Assembly (NCBI GenBank): GCA_947169745.1
Contig: CAMVQZ010000010.1
Location: forward strand, 1 to 42,213
Length of the DNA stretch: 42,213 nucleotides
Source: an uncultured Clostridia bacterium
GTDB taxonomy: Bacteria; Bacillota; Clostridia; Oscillospirales; Acutalibacteraceae
Direction: 5' to 3'
In this document: positions 2,168 through 12,873 of the stretch, one piece after another
Position numbering within the stretch: the stretch's first letter is position 1
Layout of the letters: each line of letters opens with the position of its first letter
Translations under genes and position numbers: made by a program
Notes under the pieces: generated by a model
The model's input: the letters and a program-made list of their open reading frames with translations, nothing else
Database searches by the model: none
What the model was told of the DNA's origin: nothing

Positions 2168-5100
2168 ATGCAAAACTTTATCGAACGTTTCCTGCAAGCT
2201 GCATCAGAACATCCCCGAAAGACCGCTCTTGTATGCAAGGAAAAAAGTATGACCTATGCTGAACTTGAAACTCTTAGTGCAAAGATCGCATCACGTCTGA
2301 TAAGGCACGGCGCTGTGAGGAATAAGATCTACCCCATAGTTTCAGAGCGAAGCTGCATCTATATTGCCTCCATCATCGGCGTACTTCGTGCAGGTGCGGC
2401 ATATTCACCCCTTTCGGTCGAATACCCGAAGGACAGGATCGCATATATTATCAGCGACAGCAAGGCTGAGCTAATCATTGACAAAGCCTTTCTTGAGGAT
2501 ATAGAAAACGAAAGGATACTGTCCGAGCTTCCTCAGATAGATATGGATAACGCTGCAGCTGTCATCTATACATCAGGCTCCACCGGCAATCCCAAGGGGG
2601 TTCTCCTTCCCTTTGAAAGCATCGAACAGTCAGTTGACCGTTTTTCCGCATATTCGGAGCTTCCCCGGGACTGCCGCACTGCCGTCAACTCACCCCTCAC
2701 CTTTGTAGCGTCCACTCAGTTTATTTTCACACCGCTGTGCAGCGGCGGCACTGTATATATCACCCCGACAGAGGTAATGCGCGACCCTGTCCTGCTTGCT
2801 GATTTTATAGAAAAAAACCAGATCAACCTGACGTTTATCAGCCCGAAGATACTGCGTGTTTTCAAGCCAAAGGGGGATTCGCTGAAGATCGTACATTCAG
2901 GCGGTGAACGCGTAAGCGGTGTTTTCAGTGACAAATTTCATCTTATTGTCGGCTACGGTCAAACGGAATCGGCTGCTGCTGTGCTGATGTTTGACGTTGA
3001 CAAGAAATACGACAACACCCCAATCGGAAAGCCATTAAGCGGCGTAACAGCCTATATTCTCGACGAAAACGGCAATAATGCTGACGAAGGCGAGTTGTGC
3101 CTTGCCGGCGCCTTTGCCAGGTGCTATCTGAATTCAGATGAGATAAGCGCCAGAACCTTTATTTCTAACCCCTTCTTTGAAAATGACGGCTGCAAAAAGC
3201 TTCTGAGAACAGGAGATATCGTCCGCAGAGGAGACGACGGCAATATTATATATATGAACCGCAAGGACTGGATGGTAAAGATCAACGGTCAGCGTGTGGA
3301 GATCGGAGAAGTTGAGGTGCAGCTGGGTAAAATCAGCGGAGTTGCTGCAGCCGCTGTCAAGGCATTTACAGACAGCGACGGACAGACCTATCTGTGCGGC
3401 TATTTTACAGCAGAAAAAACTCTTTCTGATTCGGATCTGAGGCGCGCTCTGCTGGGCAAGCTCCCCTCATATATGGTGCCCCGCTTCCTTGTACAGATAG
3501 ATGAGTTTCCCCTGACACCAAACGGCAAGCTTGACCGTCAGGCGCTGAGAGAGCCTGATGCATCCGACTTCCGCACAGAGTATGCTGCCCCTGAAACAGA
3601 TGAAGAACGCGCTGTCTGCGCGGCATTTGAAAGTATACTCGGCATTGACAAGGTTGGCATAAATGACGATTTCTTTGCCCTGGGCGGCGATTCCATCAAG
3701 GTCGTTATGCTGCAGGAAAGATTATCGGAGCTCAGGCTGTCCTCTGCACAGATATTTTCTCTTCGCACACCCCGGGAGATAGCAAAGGCATCCGGTAACG
3801 GAGGGGATATCTCCTTTGAGTTTGAAGAAAAAACTGCCTATCCGATGACCGACGCTCAGCTCGGCATTTATCTTGCAGGCATTCAGGATCCGCAGAGTCT
3901 TGAATATAACAACCCGGCTTCGATGTTTTTCCCGGTTGATATGAATATTGATGCAGACCGTCTTGCTGATGCTGTAAAAAAGACGGCAGAGCTGTATCCT
4001 TTTATGAAGGTCTGTGTAAAAGCAGTTGACGGTGTACCGAGCGTATTGCCGGTAAAGGATATGCCTGTGGAGGTGTCCTTTGAGAAAACGCAGGAAACCG
4101 ATCCCGAGGTGCTTTCCCGGCAGTTTGTCAGACCCTTCGACCTTGAAAACGGCCCCCTTTTCCGCTTTAAGCTGTTCAATACGCCGGCTGGAATTTATTA
4201 CTTCAGCGACGTTCACCATCTCATCACCGACGGCACCTCCATATCTCTTTTTACGAAAAATCTTGTACGCATTTATTCAGGTGAAATGCCTGTCAGCGAG
4301 GATGTCAGCGGCTTTATGCTCTGTGATTATGAGCAGAAGGCTAAGCATGGCAGCCATTACAGGGAATGCCGTGAGTTCTTCGACAATATGCTTTCAGGGG
4401 TCGAGGTCGATTCAAATATAATTCCCGACGAGATCCCGGAAAAGCCTTCTTCTGCCGGCAGACAGATGACAGTCAGTCTCAGTGACTACCTGCCCTGTAA
4501 CGAAATTGCAGGAATCTGCAAAAAACTGAAAATAACGGAAAATTCACTGTTCCTTGGTGCATTTTCCTATTCCCTTGCCAAGCAGAGCGGCCAGGAACAG
4601 GCATTATTCTGTACCGTCGAAAACGGCAGACATAACCCCGGTGTAAGCAATACATACGGAATGCTCGTCAAGACTCTTCCGCTGTGTGTAAGCATTGATG
4701 AAAATGAAGAAACCGGAAAATATCTCTCTCGTGTACAGGAACTTCTTTTCGGCTGTCTCAGCCACGATCAGGTCAGCATCGTTACTCTTGCAAATGAATA
4801 TGAGGTCAGCTCCGATATCCTCTTTGTATATCAGGGAGAAATGCTCAACGGTGTTGATTTCGGATCATCATTCATACCCTTCCGGGCACATAAAACCGGA
4901 GACGCTATGTCAAAGCTCTCCCTTGATGTACTGAAACGTCCGGACGACTATACACTTTCCTTTGAGTACCGTGCAGATCTGTATCTGGACGAAACCATTG
5001 AAAATTTTATACATCTCTATATAAATATCATAAAGGGCTTGCTTGAATGTGAAAAACTCTGTGATATCACATTTTGCACAGATCGTGAAGAATCCTTCTA

Positions 5101-8100
5101 TCGCCGCGCAAACGACAATGCGGTGGAATTTGACCGTTCTCTTACTGTGGTCGGTCTTTTCAGAGAACAGGTCAGGCTGCACCCCGATAAGACTGCAATA
5201 GTTTTCAGAGACAAGACTCTTACCTATTCACAGCTTGATGATTATTCAGAGAGACTTGCAAGGCTTCTTGCTTCAGAGGGCATTACCCGTGAGGTACCCG
5301 TCGGAATTATGGTAAAAAGATGCGAGCTCTTCCCAGTCTGCACATTTGCAGTATTAAAGGCCGGAGGCGGCTGTCAGCCCCTTGACAGCAACTATCCCCC
5401 AGAAAGACTGCTGTATATGCTTGAAGATTCAGGTGCGCCGGTGGTTATTGCTGATGACGACCTTGCACCGATCATTGAAGGCTACAAGGGAAAGATTATT
5501 TCCGCAAATACAATATTCGATCTGCCGGAGGACAACAACACAGTTCTCACCCCGCCGGAAGCAGATTCTCTCTTCGCGCTGATCTACACCTCCGGCTCCA
5601 CCGGCAAGCCCAAGGGCTGTATGCTTGAGCACAGAAATCTCGTGAATTACTGCCTTGCTTTTCATAATGTATACGGAACAACCTCCGAGGACCGTTTTTC
5701 TGCTTACGGCGCATTCGGATTTGATGCATCAATGCAGGATTTCTATCCGGCGCTGACATCAGGCGCAACCGTATATATCGTACCGGAGGAAATGCGTCTT
5801 GACCTTGTTGGTCTGCATGAATTTGTTACGGAAAACCAGATAACAATGATGGACTGCACCACTCAGCTGGGCAGACAGTTTATCACTGCTTATCCCGACT
5901 GTCCTTCAATGAAGGCATTTACTGTAGGCGGAGAAAAACTGGTTCCTCCGGAGCCGCCCCGCTTCCCGCTGCATAACACCTACGGCCCGACAGAATGTAC
6001 GATCATGGTAACCGACTATGAAATAGACAGGCATTATGTCAGCGTACCTATCGGCAAATCCTTCGGAAACTGTGATATCTATATTATAGACAAGCAGAAC
6101 CGTCTGCTGCCTCCAGGCGCTGTCGGAGAGCTTGTGATATCGGGCTATCCCGTCACGCGGGGATATCTCAACCGCCCCGATCTGACGGATGAGAAATTCA
6201 TAAGAAATCCGTTTTTCGATATCGAGGGCTACGAACGGATGTATCTCACAGGTGATGTGTGCCGCTACCTGTCCGACGGAAATCTGCAGTTTGTAGGCAG
6301 ACGCGACGAGCAGGTCAAGATACGTGGCTTCCGCATCGAGCTTACAGAAATAGAACGCCGCATCCGCACTTATGAATGTATAAGCGATGCCTGTGTTATC
6401 GCAAAGGACCTTCCCACCGGCGGAAAGGCAATTGTCGCATACATTGTTTCTGACAGTGCTGTAGATATTCCTGCGCTCAACGACTTTATAGCGGACGAGC
6501 TTCCGAAGTATATGGTACCCTCTGTCACAATGCAGATAGAGAAAATACCCATAACACCAAACGGTAAGGTGGATAAACGGAAGCTTCCGGAGCCTGCTGT
6601 CAAGACCGAAGAAACCGCCGGCTCAAAGGAACTGAATGAGCTTGAAAAACGCCTTTGCGCTATGGTCGGGGAGATAACCGGCTTTGAGATCAGTAATATT
6701 TCAGAGAGCCTTGTATCCTCAGGGCTAACCTCCCTCACAACAATAATGTTCTCCGCAAAGCTCTATGAAGCCTTCGGACTTAAAGCAAAGGTTGCCGAGC
6801 TGATGGATGAGGAGTGCTCCTTACTCAAGGTTGAAAATATGATAATCGAAAATCTGCTTTCGGGAAAACAGAGCAAAGAAAGCGAGAGTTCACCGGTCAG
6901 CACAGACAATGTGCCCCTTTGTGCAGAACAGCTGGGCGTATACTATGACAGCGTCAAGCGTCCCGAAGCACTCATATACAATATTCCGGTAAAATATACC
7001 CTCTCCCGCAGAACGGACACCACGAAACTAAAAGCTGCACTGGAAAAGCTTATTGAGACCAATCCGGTGCTGACCTCCTGCATAGTTCTTGAGGGCAAGG
7101 AACTTGTCCAGAAGCAGACCGACAATCCGAAGCCCGATATTCCCGTACTCAATATAAAGGAAGAAAGACTACATGATGAAGAGGCGGCTTTTGTGCGTCC
7201 TTTCAATCTTGCACATGGTCCCCTGTTCAGAGCGGAAATCATCAAAACAGAGTCCGATGTGATTCTTTTAGCTGACGCTCATCACATTGTTTTTGACGGT
7301 CTTTCATTGTCTGCATTCATAAAGCGGCTTGCTGATATTTACACAAACGGTACTGAGCCCGGTCGTGACGTGACATATTATGAATACATTGCTGAACAGG
7401 CTGAGCTTGAAAACAGCGAGAAGGGCAAGTCTGCTGCGGCTTATTATCAGAGCCTGTTTAAAGACTATGAAAACGCTTCCGATATCTCCGCCGATCTCAG
7501 CGGAAACGAGGAGGACGGAGAACTGGGCGAAGCCTTTGCCTATGTTGATGCAAAGGCAGTAGAAGAATTCTGCCGCAAAAATAAACTCACTCCGGCTGCA
7601 CTTTTCCTTGCAGCGACAGAATATACGGTCAGCCGCTGCACTGCCGACAGGAAGGTCTATATGTCAATGATCTCAGGAGGAAGGGAAAATGTCAGGTTTA
7701 TTGACTCCTTCGGAATGTTCGTCAAGACCCTTCCCATCTATGCAAAGATAGATACAGAGCGCACCGCACTGCAATTCGTCAGAGATGCCGCTTCAGATAT
7801 GCGCGAGGCGCAGGCCAACAGTGCATATCCCTTCATAAAGCTTCTGGACAAATACAGCTATACCCCGAAGATCAACTACGCCTGCCAGTTGGGTATTGAC
7901 GAAAAGGTGACCCTTGAGGGCGAACCTGTGACAGATTCATCTATAGCTGAGCTGCTGCCGAAATTCCATCTGAATATACATATAGAGGAAGGCGGCGACA
8001 AGGGAATTGCCGTCAATGTTCAGTATAACACTGCTCTTTACAGTCCGAAGCTTGCACAGATAATCTCAGACTCTATTGCCGAGGGCGCAAAGTCAGTTAT

Positions 8101-11100
8101 TGCGGATGCAGAGCAAAAAATCTGTAAGGTCAGTATGCTGACTGACAGGGACAAAAAGCGTCTGGAAGCTTTCTCTGCTGGAGAGAAGGCGGAAATACCG
8201 ATACAATTCTATCACAGGCTTTTTGAAGCTCAGGTAAAAAAGAATCCCGATAAAACAGCCCTTATCGCCTGCGATCATACATATACCTTTGATGAACTTG
8301 ATCGCCTTGCAAACCGACTTGCAAATGCACTTATTGCAAAAGGTGTATCCAGAGGCGACAGGATAGCAATGCTTCTGCCCCGGACAAGCCGTCAGATAAT
8401 TTCCATCTACGGCATACTCAAAACAGGCTCGGCTTACATTCCCTGTGACCCGGAATATCCTGATGACAGGATACAGTATATCATAGAGAACAGTGGAGCA
8501 AAATATATCATTACCGACAGACCCCGGGGCTTTGAAAACGAAGTCAATGTTGAGGAGCTGCTGCTTTGCGAAAATGATACGTCCCCCGATGTGAAGATGG
8601 AGCCAACGGATACAGCTTATATGATCTACACCTCCGGGTCAACAGGCAGACCAAAGGGAGTTATCATTCCTCACAAAAATATCGCGAACTACCTGACGCC
8701 CCACCCGGCAAACGTAAATATCAATGCCATTTACACTGATGCACACGCCTTTGTGTCAGTCACTACAGTATCGTTTGATATGTCCCTGAAGGAGACCGCC
8801 GGTTCCCTTTGCAACGGCGTCACTCTGGTGCTTGCAAACGAGGACGAAACCAAGGATCCCCTCCTTCTCTGCGACCTGATGGAACGTACCGGCGGAGATG
8901 CTATAAATGCCACCTGTTCACGTATGGAGCAGTATATGATGCTCAGCCGTTTCCGTGAGGCGCTTTCCAGGTGCAGGGTTATTATGTGCGGCGGCGAGAA
9001 ATATTCTCCCAAGCTGCTTGAAAATCTGAAGAAAACAACAAAAGCCCGTATATTCAACACCTATGGTCCCACAGAAACAACTGTTTCCTGCAATTCCAAA
9101 GAGCTTACGAATGCTTCTGCGGTCTCGGCAGGAAGACCCTTGCTCAATGCTGTTGAATATATTGTTGACGCAGATGAAAATATCCTTCCCGCGGGCGTTG
9201 TCGGCGAGCTTTATATCGGCGGCGCAGGCGTCGGAGACGGCTACAGCAATAATCCGGAGCTGACTGCAAGAAGCTTCATCACATTCAAGGGTGAACGATT
9301 CTATCGTTCAGGTGATTATGCCCGCTTCACAGATGACGGCGATGTTGTTATACTGGGCAGGACTGACAATCAGGTCAAGCTGAGAGGTCTGCGTATAGAA
9401 CTGGGAGAAATAGAGCGCGCTATGCTCTCCTGTGAGGGCGTTCGTCAGGCTGTGGCTCTCATACGACCTATAAACGGTATGGACAACCTTTGTGCATATT
9501 ACAGCGCTGACAGCTCCGTCAGCGAAGAGCTTCTGCGGGATTTCATCTCCAGACGGCTGACCGCATATATGGTTCCTGCTGCAATAATGCGCCTTGACGC
9601 TATGCCCCAGACCCCGAACGGCAAGACGGATATCCGCGCACTGCCTCAGCCTGAGCTGAATTCCGCCGATACCTACACTGCCCCCTCCACAAGAGAGGAA
9701 TCCATTTTCTGCGATATCTTTGCCCACATCCTGAAGCTGGACAAGGTAAGTGTGGACAGCAGCTTTTTCGATCTCGGAGGTACCTCGCTGACAGTAACAA
9801 GCGTGCTTGTGGAGGCTAACGATGCCGGCTTTGAGGTCTCCTATGGTGACATCTTCACTCTTAAAACACCCCGGGCACTTGCCGCAAAGGTCAGCGGAAA
9901 GGATACATTCTCAGACGGGCTTGCCGATTATGACTATAAATCCATTGATGCCCTGGTTGCGGAGAATACTCTTGATTCACTGAAGGAAAACAAAAACCGT
10001 CTCGGAAATATACTCCTCACAGGTGCTACCGGCTTCCTTGGAATACATATCCTCAGATATTTACTTGATAATTACAGCGGACACATTTACTGCCTGCTGC
10101 GGGGTTCAAAATCCCATTCCGCCAGGCAGCGACTGGTTACTCAGTTATTCTATTATTTCGAGAGCACCTACAGCTCCTGTTTCAAAAACAGGATCACTGT
10201 TATTGAGGGCAGCGTGACATCAACGGATTGGTTTGCTGAGCTGGAAAATGAAAGAATAGATACTGTCATAAATTGTGCAGCCCTTGTAAAACACTTTTCT
10301 GAAACCAACGATCTTATGGAGGTAAATGCTGAGGGAGTAAAGAAGCTTATCGGATTCTGTAAGGCACACGGAAGTATGCTGGTACAGGTGTCAACAGGCA
10401 GTGTTGCCGGCGACAGAGTAAACAATTATCCGCCTGCAGACAGCATTTTTAACGAACAGACGCTCTACTTTGGTCAGACAATAGACAATCAGTATGTATA
10501 CAGCAAATTCATTGCAGAACGTTATGCACTGGAAGCAATGAACGAAGGTCTGAAGGTCAAGATAATGCGTGTCGGGACCCTGGCGCCGAGAAGTAGTGAC
10601 GGCGAGTTCCAGATAAACTTCGATACAAACGGATTTATGGGCAGGTTGCGTGCTTACGTTGCAATAGGAGCATTCCCCTACAGTATGATGGAATTCCCTG
10701 TAAGGCTCGCCCCCATCGACGACACAGCAGAAGCAATAGTACGCCTCTGCACAACACCTGACAAGTGCTGTATTTTCCATCCGTTAAATAACCATGTTGT
10801 TCCCCTGGGCGATATTATAATGCAGATGCAGGAAAACGGGCTTCCTGTCAGACTTGTTGAGGATGATGAGTTTGCTGCAATGCTCAGCGCTGCGGAGAAC
10901 GACCCCGAAAAGGCCGCCCTACTCACAACACTACTCGCTTATGAAAACAAGGACAGCTCAAGATCAGTAGAGATGATAAAAACAGATAACAATTACACCA
11001 CACAGGTTCTTTATCGTCTCGGCTTCAGGTGGTCAATGACGCCTCGCAGCTATATGAACAGCTTCCTTCAGGCACTTGACGGGCTGCGTTTCTTTGACAT

Positions 11101-11116
11101 AAAGGAGGGACTCTGA
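2168..11116 (+). CDS. Trimodular nonribosomal peptide synthetase, A-T-C-A-T-C-A-T-R, reductive release
   Basis: Assembly-line enzyme of about 2982 aa. The ATG at 2168 is chosen over the in-frame GTG at 2159 because GGAG at 2155-2158 abuts the GTG but sits 9 nt before the ATG. Domains by approximate residue: A1 5-455 (YTSGSTGNPKG, NGKLDR), T1 with Ser in LGGDS near 508, C1 557-950 (HHLITDG near 682), A2 988-1475 (YTSGSTGKPKG, NGKVDK), T2 with Ser in SGLTSL near 1521 (atypical motif), C2 1581-1971 (HHIVFDG near 1704), A3 2011-2494 (YTSGSTGRPKG, NGKTD), T3 with Ser in LGGTSL near 2539, and thioester reductase 2614-2977 (GATGFLG, YxxxK in YVYSKFIAER). There is no starter C domain. Read by eye against GrsA, the ten-residue specificity codes are A1 VAQFHGGAAK, A2 DAQDTGTIMK, A3 DMKNMGTVSK. 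R-domain release gives a peptide aldehyde or, after further reduction, an alcohol. No phosphopantetheinyl transferase is in the window. It is translationally coupled to the exporter. Confidence 0.95.
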   Translation: MQNFIERFLQAASEHPRKTALVCKEKSMTYAELETLSAKIASRLIRHGAVRNKIYPIVSERSCIYIASIIGVLRAGAAYSPLSVEYPKDRIAYIISDSKAELIIDKAFLEDIENERILSELPQIDMDNAAAVIYTSGSTGNPKGVLLPFESIEQSVDRFSAYSELPRDCRTAVNSPLTFVASTQFIFTPLCSGGTVYITPTEVMRDPVLLADFIEKNQINLTFISPKILRVFKPKGDSLKIVHSGGERVSGVFSDKFHLIVGYGQTESAAAVLMFDVDKKYDNTPIGKPLSGVTAYILDENGNNADEGELCLAGAFARCYLNSDEISARTFISNPFFENDGCKKLLRTGDIVRRGDDGNIIYMNRKDWMVKINGQRVEIGEVEVQLGKISGVAAAAVKAFTDSDGQTYLCGYFTAEKTLSDSDLRRALLGKLPSYMVPRFLVQIDEFPLTPNGKLDRQALREPDASDFRTEYAAPETDEERAVCAAFESILGIDKVGINDDFFALGGDSIKVVMLQERLSELRLSSAQIFSLRTPREIAKASGNGGDISFEFEEKTAYPMTDAQLGIYLAGIQDPQSLEYNNPASMFFPVDMNIDADRLADAVKKTAELYPFMKVCVKAVDGVPSVLPVKDMPVEVSFEKTQETDPEVLSRQFVRPFDLENGPLFRFKLFNTPAGIYYFSDVHHLITDGTSISLFTKNLVRIYSGEMPVSEDVSGFMLCDYEQKAKHGSHYRECREFFDNMLSGVEVDSNIIPDEIPEKPSSAGRQMTVSLSDYLPCNEIAGICKKLKITENSLFLGAFSYSLAKQSGQEQALFCTVENGRHNPGVSNTYGMLVKTLPLCVSIDENEETGKYLSRVQELLFGCLSHDQVSIVTLANEYEVSSDILFVYQGEMLNGVDFGSSFIPFRAHKTGDAMSKLSLDVLKRPDDYTLSFEYRADLYLDETIENFIHLYINIIKGLLECEKLCDITFCTDREESFYRRANDNAVEFDRSLTVVGLFREQVRLHPDKTAIVFRDKTLTYSQLDDYSERLARLLASEGITREVPVGIMVKRCELFPVCTFAVLKAGGGCQPLDSNYPPERLLYMLEDSGAPVVIADDDLAPIIEGYKGKIISANTIFDLPEDNNTVLTPPEADSLFALIYTSGSTGKPKGCMLEHRNLVNYCLAFHNVYGTTSEDRFSAYGAFGFDASMQDFYPALTSGATVYIVPEEMRLDLVGLHEFVTENQITMMDCTTQLGRQFITAYPDCPSMKAFTVGGEKLVPPEPPRFPLHNTYGPTECTIMVTDYEIDRHYVSVPIGKSFGNCDIYIIDKQNRLLPPGAVGELVISGYPVTRGYLNRPDLTDEKFIRNPFFDIEGYERMYLTGDVCRYLSDGNLQFVGRRDEQVKIRGFRIELTEIERRIRTYECISDACVIAKDLPTGGKAIVAYIVSDSAVDIPALNDFIADELPKYMVPSVTMQIEKIPITPNGKVDKRKLPEPAVKTEETAGSKELNELEKRLCAMVGEITGFEISNISESLVSSGLTSLTTIMFSAKLYEAFGLKAKVAELMDEECSLLKVENMIIENLLSGKQSKESESSPVSTDNVPLCAEQLGVYYDSVKRPEALIYNIPVKYTLSRRTDTTKLKAALEKLIETNPVLTSCIVLEGKELVQKQTDNPKPDIPVLNIKEERLHDEEAAFVRPFNLAHGPLFRAEIIKTESDVILLADAHHIVFDGLSLSAFIKRLADIYTNGTEPGRDVTYYEYIAEQAELENSEKGKSAAAYYQSLFKDYENASDISADLSGNEEDGELGEAFAYVDAKAVEEFCRKNKLTPAALFLAATEYTVSRCTADRKVYMSMISGGRENVRFIDSFGMFVKTLPIYAKIDTERTALQFVRDAASDMREAQANSAYPFIKLLDKYSYTPKINYACQLGIDEKVTLEGEPVTDSSIAELLPKFHLNIHIEEGGDKGIAVNVQYNTALYSPKLAQIISDSIAEGAKSVIADAEQKICKVSMLTDRDKKRLEAFSAGEKAEIPIQFYHRLFEAQVKKNPDKTALIACDHTYTFDELDRLANRLANALIAKGVSRGDRIAMLLPRTSRQIISIYGILKTGSAYIPCDPEYPDDRIQYIIENSGAKYIITDRPRGFENEVNVEELLLCENDTSPDVKMEPTDTAYMIYTSGSTGRPKGVIIPHKNIANYLTPHPANVNINAIYTDAHAFVSVTTVSFDMSLKETAGSLCNGVTLVLANEDETKDPLLLCDLMERTGGDAINATCSRMEQYMMLSRFREALSRCRVIMCGGEKYSPKLLENLKKTTKARIFNTYGPTETTVSCNSKELTNASAVSAGRPLLNAVEYIVDADENILPAGVVGELYIGGAGVGDGYSNNPELTARSFITFKGERFYRSGDYARFTDDGDVVILGRTDNQVKLRGLRIELGEIERAMLSCEGVRQAVALIRPINGMDNLCAYYSADSSVSEELLRDFISRRLTAYMVPAAIMRLDAMPQTPNGKTDIRALPQPELNSADTYTAPSTREESIFCDIFAHILKLDKVSVDSSFFDLGGTSLTVTSVLVEANDAGFEVSYGDIFTLKTPRALAAKVSGKDTFSDGLADYDYKSIDALVAENTLDSLKENKNRLGNILLTGATGFLGIHILRYLLDNYSGHIYCLLRGSKSHSARQRLVTQLFYYFESTYSSCFKNRITVIEGSVTSTDWFAELENERIDTVINCAALVKHFSETNDLMEVNAEGVKKLIGFCKAHGSMLVQVSTGSVAGDRVNNYPPADSIFNEQTLYFGQTIDNQYVYSKFIAERYALEAMNEGLKVKIMRVGTLAPRSSDGEFQINFDTNGFMGRLRAYVAIGAFPYSMMEFPVRLAPIDDTAEAIVRLCTTPDKCCIFHPLNNHVVPLGDIIMQMQENGLPVRLVEDDEFAAMLSAAENDPEKAALLTTLLAYENKDSSRSVEMIKTDNNYTTQVLYRLGFRWSMTPRSYMNSFLQALDGLRFFDIKEGL

Positions 11117-12873
11117 TGGCCCTTACCCGTACAGGCACTCTGCTGAGCAGAAAATTCAATGAATATCTTTTCCCTGCGATAATCAGTTCGATGTCTGTTT
11201 TGTTAGCAACCTTTATTGACGGTATTATCGTATCAAAGCTTATCAGCGACGATGCTTTCTCGGCGGTAAATCTTGCAGATCCGGTAATACTGTTTATGCA
11301 GGCGCTGTTCTTTCTCTTTGGTATCGGCGGCGCGATCAGCATTTCAATTGCAAAGGGACAGCGCAATACAAAAAAGGCAAATGCCCTGTTTTCCCTTTCC
11401 CTTATTGGTTCGCTTGTTGTATCGGTAGTTGTAACGGTTGCCGGAGTGCTGCTTATCGACCCTGTCACCTCCGCTCTCTGTACCGAGCCGCAGTTGACAG
11501 GGCTTGTCAGGAATTATTCGCTGGTAACCATTATCGGAACTCCACTCATGGTGATAGTACCATATCTGACATTTGTAATCCGCGTTGACGGTCTGCCGAA
11601 GCTGTCTGCAAATATCCTCCTTGCTTCAAACACCGTCAACCTTCTGATGGATTTTGTATACATCGGGGTATTCGGAATGGATACCTCAGGCGCAGCTCTC
11701 GCTACTGTTACCGGATATGGTGTGGGATTTCTCATAGAGCTGTATTATCTAATATTTTATAAAAAACGCACACTCAGGTTCGTGAGGCTATGCAAGGACG
11801 ATCTCAGATACCTCGGGGAGCTCTGTTCAAGCGGCATCTCCTCTGTCCTCAGTACAGTTCTGCTCTTTGTTAAAGCTATACTTCTCAATCGTATTGTTGT
11901 GGCAACAGGCGGTGCTGACGCTATTGCAGTTTTCTCAGTCTGCAACTTCACAGTGACCTTCATATCAATGTTCATTTCCGGCGGCGCGGATACCATGACT
12001 CCCATAATCAGCCTGCTCTACGGAGAACAGGATCACAAAGGAACAGATATTGTCCTTAAAAAGACTCTCCTCTTTGTATGCACCTCTTGTCTTTTGATAA
12101 CAGCCGCCGTTACAGCCTTTCCGCAGATGCTTCTGATGCTCTTTTCAGTGACCTCGCCCGAACGTGTGGAAATGGGTACTGCCGCTGTGAGGATATTCTC
12201 GCTTTGCTTTGTCTTTATGGGACTTTGCAATATTATTATGAATTACCTCCAGGCAAGCAGGCACCGGGCACTGTCTCTTATGGTCGCATTTCTTCGCGGT
12301 ATCGTTATTATTGTTCCCCTTGCTTACGGACTTTCTCTCGTGTCCGGGGTCACAGGCATATGGTGGTCATTTATGATCTCCGAAATGCTGACCGCTGTGA
12401 CAGCTCTGCTTGTTTGTTTTATCATCAGCCGCGTCAGGAAAAACAAGTACACCGGTATTCTTCTCCATGAACGGCAAAAAGCTGTGAATGCGGTTTTCGA
12501 TGTAAGCCTTTTTCCGGACAAAGCACAGGCAAGCGCCGTCTCAAAGGAACTGACAGATTTTTGTACTGAACATAAGGTAGAAAGCGGAAGGGCAACGCTT
12601 GCCGGGCTTTTGGCCGAAGAGATAGTTGAAAACATACGCTTCTTTAACAAGGATAAAAAACAGCCCCAGATCGACCTTATCTGTCATATAACCGACAACG
12701 GCATCATTATTTCCGTCAGGGACAACGGGGATACCTTCGATTCCATAACTGTAGATGATAACTGCGGGGAATTCACAAACCTCAGAATGATTCATTCCAT
12801 AGCAGATAAAGTATCGTATTCAAGGACCCTGGGAATGAATACAATGCTTGTGCAGATTTCTGACAATGCATAA
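11116..12873 (+). CDS. MATE-family exporter fused to a C-terminal anti-sigma-like (HATPase) domain
   Basis: 585 aa. Its ATG overlaps the NRPS stop (TGATG at 11114-11118), behind AAAGGAGG, so it is co-translated and probably exports the NRPS product. Residues about 15-450 form the multi-helix core of a MATE/MOP exporter (polytopic inner membrane, cation-coupled antiport). After about residue 460 the chain turns soluble and resembles a GHKL/RsbW-type ATPase: N-box LLAEEIVENI near 497, G1-like VRDNGDTFD near 534, and a closing stretch GEFTNLRMIHSIADKV near 551. Ordinary MATE proteins are about 450 aa and have no nucleotide-binding domain, so the fusion is unusual. Whether it binds ATP, acts as an anti-sigma or phosphorelay partner, or is structural cannot be told from sequence. 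Confidence 0.88.
   Translation: MALTRTGTLLSRKFNEYLFPAIISSMSVLLATFIDGIIVSKLISDDAFSAVNLADPVILFMQALFFLFGIGGAISISIAKGQRNTKKANALFSLSLIGSLVVSVVVTVAGVLLIDPVTSALCTEPQLTGLVRNYSLVTIIGTPLMVIVPYLTFVIRVDGLPKLSANILLASNTVNLLMDFVYIGVFGMDTSGAALATVTGYGVGFLIELYYLIFYKKRTLRFVRLCKDDLRYLGELCSSGISSVLSTVLLFVKAILLNRIVVATGGADAIAVFSVCNFTVTFISMFISGGADTMTPIISLLYGEQDHKGTDIVLKKTLLFVCTSCLLITAAVTAFPQMLLMLFSVTSPERVEMGTAAVRIFSLCFVFMGLCNIIMNYLQASRHRALSLMVAFLRGIVIIVPLAYGLSLVSGVTGIWWSFMISEMLTAVTALLVCFIISRVRKNKYTGILLHERQKAVNAVFDVSLFPDKAQASAVSKELTDFCTEHKVESGRATLAGLLAEEIVENIRFFNKDKKQPQIDLICHITDNGIIISVRDNGDTFDSITVDDNCGEFTNLRMIHSIADKVSYSRTLGMNTMLVQISDNA

Follow-up and report, generated by a model that had tools for sequence, protein, structure and literature searches.

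A starter adenylation domain without Asp235 in a Clostridia nonribosomal peptide synthetase, and the clade of starter domains to which it belongs

The window, a stretch of 42,213 nucleotides from an uncultured Clostridia bacterium, carries a nonribosomal peptide synthetase (NRPS) whose first adenylation (A) domain, A1, has valine in place of the aspartate at position 235, the residue that a first-pass annotation of this DNA took to hold the alpha-amino group of the substrate. What would such a domain load onto the assembly line, and is the loss peculiar to this gene? The features on which the answer rests are the following.

2168..11116, plus strand: NRPS gene, 2982 aa, domain order A1-T-C-A2-T-C-A3-T-R (Pfam, domain and motif scans)
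2168..3559, plus strand: A1, loading adenylation domain without Asp235, code VAQFHGGAAK
2705..2707, plus strand: codon GTA of Val180, at the Asp235 position (HMMER and MAFFT mapping)
about 3593..3808, plus strand: T1 carrier domain, motif LGGDS
3839..5095, plus strand: C1 condensation domain, motif HHLITDG
5126..6613, plus strand: A2, Asp235 present, code DAQDTGTIMK
between A2 and C2, plus strand: T2 carrier, one of Pfam's three carriers and missed by our own domain scan
6911..8158, plus strand: C2 condensation domain, motif HHIVFDG
8189..9670, plus strand: A3, Asp235 present, code DMKNMGTVSK
9674..9913, plus strand: T3 carrier domain, motif LGGTS
9929..11113, plus strand: R, thioester reductase (NAD_binding_4), motifs TGATGFLG and YVYSK
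11116..12873, plus strand: MATE exporter with a C-terminal HATPase-like domain, the latter below the Pfam cut-off in the window copy

In the NRPS, Pfam matched AMP-binding three times, condensation twice, the carrier domain three times and NAD_binding_4 once. Two C-A-T extension modules are followed by a thioester reductase at the C-terminus. The start codon, the ATG at 2168, is preceded by AAGGAG. Both Pfam and the domain scan placed A1 first, with no C domain upstream of it, confirming the earlier statement that a starter C domain is missing, and the plus strand from 832 to 2158 held no open reading frame of 100 or more amino acids. Ketoreductase (KR), starter C and methyltransferase domains were all absent from the window NRPS in the Pfam scan, and Rfam reported nothing at its gathering threshold. 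The source genome assembly consists of 177 contigs, and two matches to the PPTase superfamily lie elsewhere in that genome.

We examined the identity of residue 235 by two alignments. HMMER aligned the GTA codon of Val180 with the aspartate of the FDGS motif of LgrA, and mapping with MAFFT assigned Val180 to position 235, with A2 and A3 keeping Asp. The same mapping read E. coli EntF as DVWHFSLVDK and EntE as AMPAQGVVNK, which we take to be the published codes of these proteins. The Asp-to-Val exchange that the first-pass annotation had described (GTA at 2705-2707, residue 180) was thus borne out by HMMER, by MAFFT mapping and by codon position. A1 also keeps the catalytic motifs TSGSTGNPKG, TGD, KINGQRVEIGEVE and NGKLD, and for this reason it looks active; its A5 motif is YGQTE, versus YGPTE expected by the pattern.

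Family-model scores separate A1 from A2 and A3. On TIGR01733, A1 reached 263 bits, below the cut-off of 317, and A2 and A3 scored above it at 366 and 370. In the NCBIfam scan, the amino-acid adenylation model gave A1 264 bits and the best-scoring long-chain-fatty-acid ligase model 172; fatty acyl-AMP ligases (FAAL) are marked by the FAAL insertion. Taken one domain at a time, the solved A domains nearest to A1 in sequence were those of GrsA and TycA, followed by LgrA A1; the summed bits for LgrA cover two of its domains. These loading domains, the nearest solved relatives of A1, likewise sit near the starts of their synthetases. GrsA (code table, PMC11355689) and, in the alignment with A1, LgrA have Asp235, whereas A1 has Val.

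We read residue 235 in 120 A domains and built a tree of 119, leaving out the fragment L045. Asp was found in 70 domains and another residue in 50, the latter comprising 47 members of the A1 clade, EntE, the stand-alone domain L043 and L045, which is a misaligned fragment of an acyl-CoA-ligase-like protein. The 47 domains formed a single clade in the 119-domain tree (SH-aLRT 99), with Val in 30, Ala in 13 and Ile in 4 at position 235, and this clade persisted with a support of 99 in FastTree when the A4 columns were removed. Outside it, EntE (Ala) and L043 (Ser) also lacked Asp; this pair was treated as reference rows. The sampling was seeded with A1, with its relatives over-represented and some rows near copies, and the figures of 70 with Asp and 47 without are a split by group definition; the tests are where each domain sits in its protein and how the tree groups it, the first of these carrying the weight. 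Every one of the 47 clade members was the first domain found in its open reading frame or stood alone, and all 65 A domains located behind a C domain had Asp. A1 itself is the first A domain of its protein, has Val at 235 and falls inside the supported clade. One synthetase (L070) starts with an A domain yet keeps Asp (code DVMCDGGISK), which shows that a starter need not lose it. These results show that the loss in A1 is no lone mutation and is common to a wide family of starters, a point that the first-pass annotation did not make; this shared clade is the more interesting fact.

The clade branched beside LgrA A1 and other amino-acid A domains, far from EntE, which is the sole aryl-acid row and the outgroup and sits on a very long branch. 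Clustering with alpha-amino-acid A domains, which the first-pass annotation had regarded as evidence against its proposal, was therefore found in part: A1 does branch among such domains and away from EntE, but its clade is a distinct one, and Asp was seen in none of the members read. A starter A domain with a residue other than Asp at 235 was read in at least 16 of 37 genomes of the same genus, the source genome included. An A1 profile search of 398 family genomes, which scored the best four candidates of most genomes, gave at least 17 places in at least 13 genomes above 430 bits. Residue 235 was read in 16 of these 17 places (all but G706:C29), and Asp occurred in none; those read among the matches below 392 bits have Asp. 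A contig of genome G460 was identical to L036. Among the papers listed from the open-licence literature, none had a title or abstract treating these starter domains, and the available part of a rumen survey that counted 5,346 NRPS clusters does not discuss them (PMC8241843).

In the source genome, L043 (contig C22) was the only other place above the adenylation cut-off. It is a stand-alone adenylation domain of 509 aa with Ser at 235 (code SMTYLALDIK), and it scored above the amino-acid adenylation cut-off and below the DltA cut-off.

We read A1 as part of a loading module that takes a carboxylic acid lacking an alpha-amino group and feeds an N-acyl-dipeptide aldehyde, a reading to which we assign a probability of roughly 70%. 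In this proposed pathway, A1 would adenylate such an acid, most likely a short- or medium-chain fatty or branched acid and possibly an aryl acid, and load it onto T1. C1 would couple the acyl group to the amino acid picked by A2, C2 would attach the amino acid picked by A3, and R would free the chain reductively as the N-acyl-dipeptide aldehyde. Export would probably fall to the MATE protein, whose gene comes next and overlaps that of the NRPS. We infer the substrate class, release as an aldehyde rather than an alcohol, and export. The earlier suggestion that A1 loads an acid other than an alpha-amino acid gains support from the lost Asp235 and the non-Asp starter clade, and the suggested acyl-dipeptide aldehyde type of line agrees with the two extension modules and R, the product class being predicted. 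Against this pathway stand the ancestry of the A1 clade among amino-acid A domains and the amino-acid substrates of the nearest solved domains, as do the imperfect split of the C domains and the gene neighbourhood, both described below.

The deepest part of the clade offered a clue to the substrate. When the tree was rooted on EntE, the earliest-branching members were L111 and L119, both stand-alone ligases. Genes near both resemble a CaiB-type CoA transferase, an SDR and an acyl-CoA dehydrogenase with acryloyl-CoA reductase as best match. A FabK-like enzyme and a 3-hydroxyacyl-CoA dehydrogenase also lie near L119, and L111 has in addition an electron-transfer subunit nearby, with its CoA transferase and SDR on the other strand. 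Several of these neighbour matches fall below curated family cut-offs. The context of both ligases points to a putative acid:CoA-type chemistry.

Other substrates were weighed against this reading. An aryl acid of the benzoic, phenylacetic or phenylpropionic type is unlikely, though the best placed of the alternatives. Two residues before position 235, Asn occurs in 16 of the 47 clade members, as in EntE (HNYAMSS), and four of the five rows in the window's sister group have it (N-F-A-I-S in L031, L032, L039 and L040; L033 has Ser); in addition, G301, G322, A330 and A331 may leave room for a large group. The window, however, has Thr at this Asn position of the HNY motif, and A1 lies far from EntE in the tree, where the EntE branch is very long. 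An ordinary alpha-amino acid whose amine is bound by other residues would fit the nesting of the clade among amino-acid A domains and the amino-acid substrates of the nearest solved ones, but the ten code positions of A1 hold no acidic residue, and position 240, acidic in 69 of the 70 Asp-type domains and in 22 of the 47 clade members, is Phe in the window; we regard this substrate as improbable. A beta-amino acid, one of the caps suggested in the first-pass annotation, is the least probable substrate of all and very nearly dismissed by the pocket. Beta-amino-acid A domains do also lack Asp235, and in VinN an Asp near position 230 holds the beta-amine; that position is Ser in the window and acidic in none of the 47 clade members.

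An alpha-keto (or alpha-hydroxy) acid, which would yield an alpha-ketoacyl- or hydroxyacyl-dipeptide aldehyde, was absent from the earlier list of acids, on which the fatty and aryl options are kept and the beta-amino option is weak. We consider it doubtful, less probable than an aryl acid and somewhat more probable than an alpha-amino acid. Alpha-keto-acid A domains, too, descend from amino-acid A domains. They typically have an aliphatic residue at 235 according to the available portion of PMC10949194, and the accessible text of PMC4558948 gives Val235, as in A1, for HctE, HctF, NpnA, CrpD and HapC, with HctE and HctF activating 2-oxoisovaleric acid. Known alpha-keto-acid modules such as HctE, HctF and HapC, however, have a KR embedded in the A domain, and none was detected in A1 or elsewhere in the window NRPS by Pfam. 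In 42 of the 47 clade members, the gap between A8 and A10 was just 72-78 aa (the pattern matched these 42 and not the other five), indicating that these 42 have no embedded KR. The Pfam scan and the gap lengths also ruled out a hydroxy acid made by a KR. Because Val235 occurs in keto-acid modules and Ser235 in a predicted hydroxy/carboxy-acid domain (excerpted text of PMC11356792), residue 235 says "no amine" and not which acid.

A quick tree of 86 C domains and a careful tree of 66 of these were built, the latter leaving out long branches and near copies, including the C domains of L110. C domains behind non-Asp starters lay mostly apart from those behind Asp domains, and in the careful tree the 22 C domains behind non-Asp starters formed three pure clades of 8, 7 and 7. 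The split was not clean, because L110 crossed it in the quick tree, each of its two C domains grouping with the opposite donor type. The L110 protein (G283 contig C82) is 1959 aa long and has the order A-T-C-A-T-C, opening with a non-Asp starter and closing with a C domain. In the quick tree the neighbours of the window C1 group were four starter C domains at the N-termini of their proteins (L121-L124; SH-aLRT 98), from lines that likewise end in R. The careful tree leaves this fork open, and the sisterhood was dropped; a possible kinship of C1 with starter C domains is a hint only.

Relatives of the synthetase share its organization. Nine of the ten named relatives had 50-56% identity, with titles such as uncultured Ruminococcus RUG..., Lachnospiraceae Tb.RUG..., Clostridiales RUG... 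and Goat_Rumen, where RUG stands for rumen; the tenth (L038, uncultured Eubacterium) had 42%. The source bacterium is related to rumen Ruminococcus. Five relatives from rumen MAGs (L031-L033, L039 and L040) had an identical domain order and an adjoining MATE gene. In the window, the ATG of the MATE gene overlaps the NRPS stop codon, and MATE-related genes were present at 17 of the 30 compared loci, several of which end at contig ends. Apart from MATE, no neighbour within the window's first 20 kb recurred in more than two of the 30 loci, and up to 20 kb no neighbour was found by Pfam or NCBIfam that makes or activates an acid.

Several further observations were made around these genes. The MATE exporters next to these NRPSs carry a C-terminal anti-sigma-type HATPase domain, which passed an E-value of 1e-3 in 11 of 15 Pfam comparisons (the window and 14 relatives). 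STAS and SpoIIE-type genes adjoin several clusters (Pfam in L034, related open reading frames at other loci), and together with the HATPase domain they suggest partner-switch control of export or expression. A triosephosphate isomerase-like gene (Pfam in L031) lies downstream of the MATE gene in L031, L039 and L040. In L062, L064, L066 and L067, genes of one similarity cluster (n=4) adjoin synthetases that belong to the FAWS starter group, and the L066 copy has an Acyl_transf_3 match in Pfam. The NRPS frame of L058 (G016 contig C34) is broken by one TAA, so that either the gene has decayed or the assembly is in error.

Eight loci (L107, L108, L109, L115-L118 and L069) encode stand-alone A-T-C proteins, each about 1000 aa long, that open with a non-Asp A domain and end in a C domain. 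A carboxylesterase gene (PF00135 in L107) adjoins the A-T-C gene in L107, L108, L115, L116 and L118 (tblastn), and a STAS-type gene lies near it in seven of the eight loci, L117 being the exception. These proteins possibly make N-acyl amides or esters. In L129, L131 and L133, a stand-alone AMP-binding ligase gene adjoins synthetases that start with a C domain, which fits, as expected, acyl priming by the starter C domain.

We compared the window line with known synthetases. The octanoyl dipeptide aldehyde line probably brings in its acyl start via an N-terminal C domain, whereas the window line is primed by an A-T didomain. Lines with a starter C domain also exist among the family genomes (L121-L126), with an N-terminal C domain, two A domains and R. 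AusA has two modules and ends in R. The best whole-protein NCBIfam match of the window NRPS was this aureusimine synthetase (NF047350), at 1487 bits against a cut-off of 2500, and membership of the AusA family was rejected on that score. As described in the available text of PMC8518294 and PMC12327764, a Clostridium cluster (BGC0001686) yielded N-octanoyl-Met-Phe-H on expression in E. coli, and ruminopeptin of Ruminococcus bromii is N-acyl-Leu-Glu-al. As far as these sources extend, such NRPSs have the same predicted product class as the window line, with its two extension modules and R, and the producers, one of them a Ruminococcus, are gut Clostridia like the source organism. Acyl-dipeptide aldehydes from gut Clostridia are a known kind, and the window line is a variant of it.

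A wider reading is offered tentatively, at less than even odds. It holds that a diversified starter clade in rumen and gut Ruminococcus-like Clostridia, shared with stand-alone ligases beside acyl-CoA genes, arose once from amino-acid A domains and writes varied organic-acid caps (branched, fatty and aromatic fermentation acids) on peptide aldehydes of one, two or three residues and on the products of stand-alone A-T-C proteins. Gut-bacterial peptide aldehydes act as protease inhibitors, and which target they hit depends in part on cap and residues. If acid-loading A domains can be recognised as a clade, caps could be predicted from the sequences of many gut and rumen genomes, and annotation pipelines that put an amino acid in module 1 would be warned. 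The natural pockets of the clade, which have Val, Ala or Ile at 235 and Asn, Thr or Ser at 233, are also material from which the code for substrates other than amino acids may be learned.
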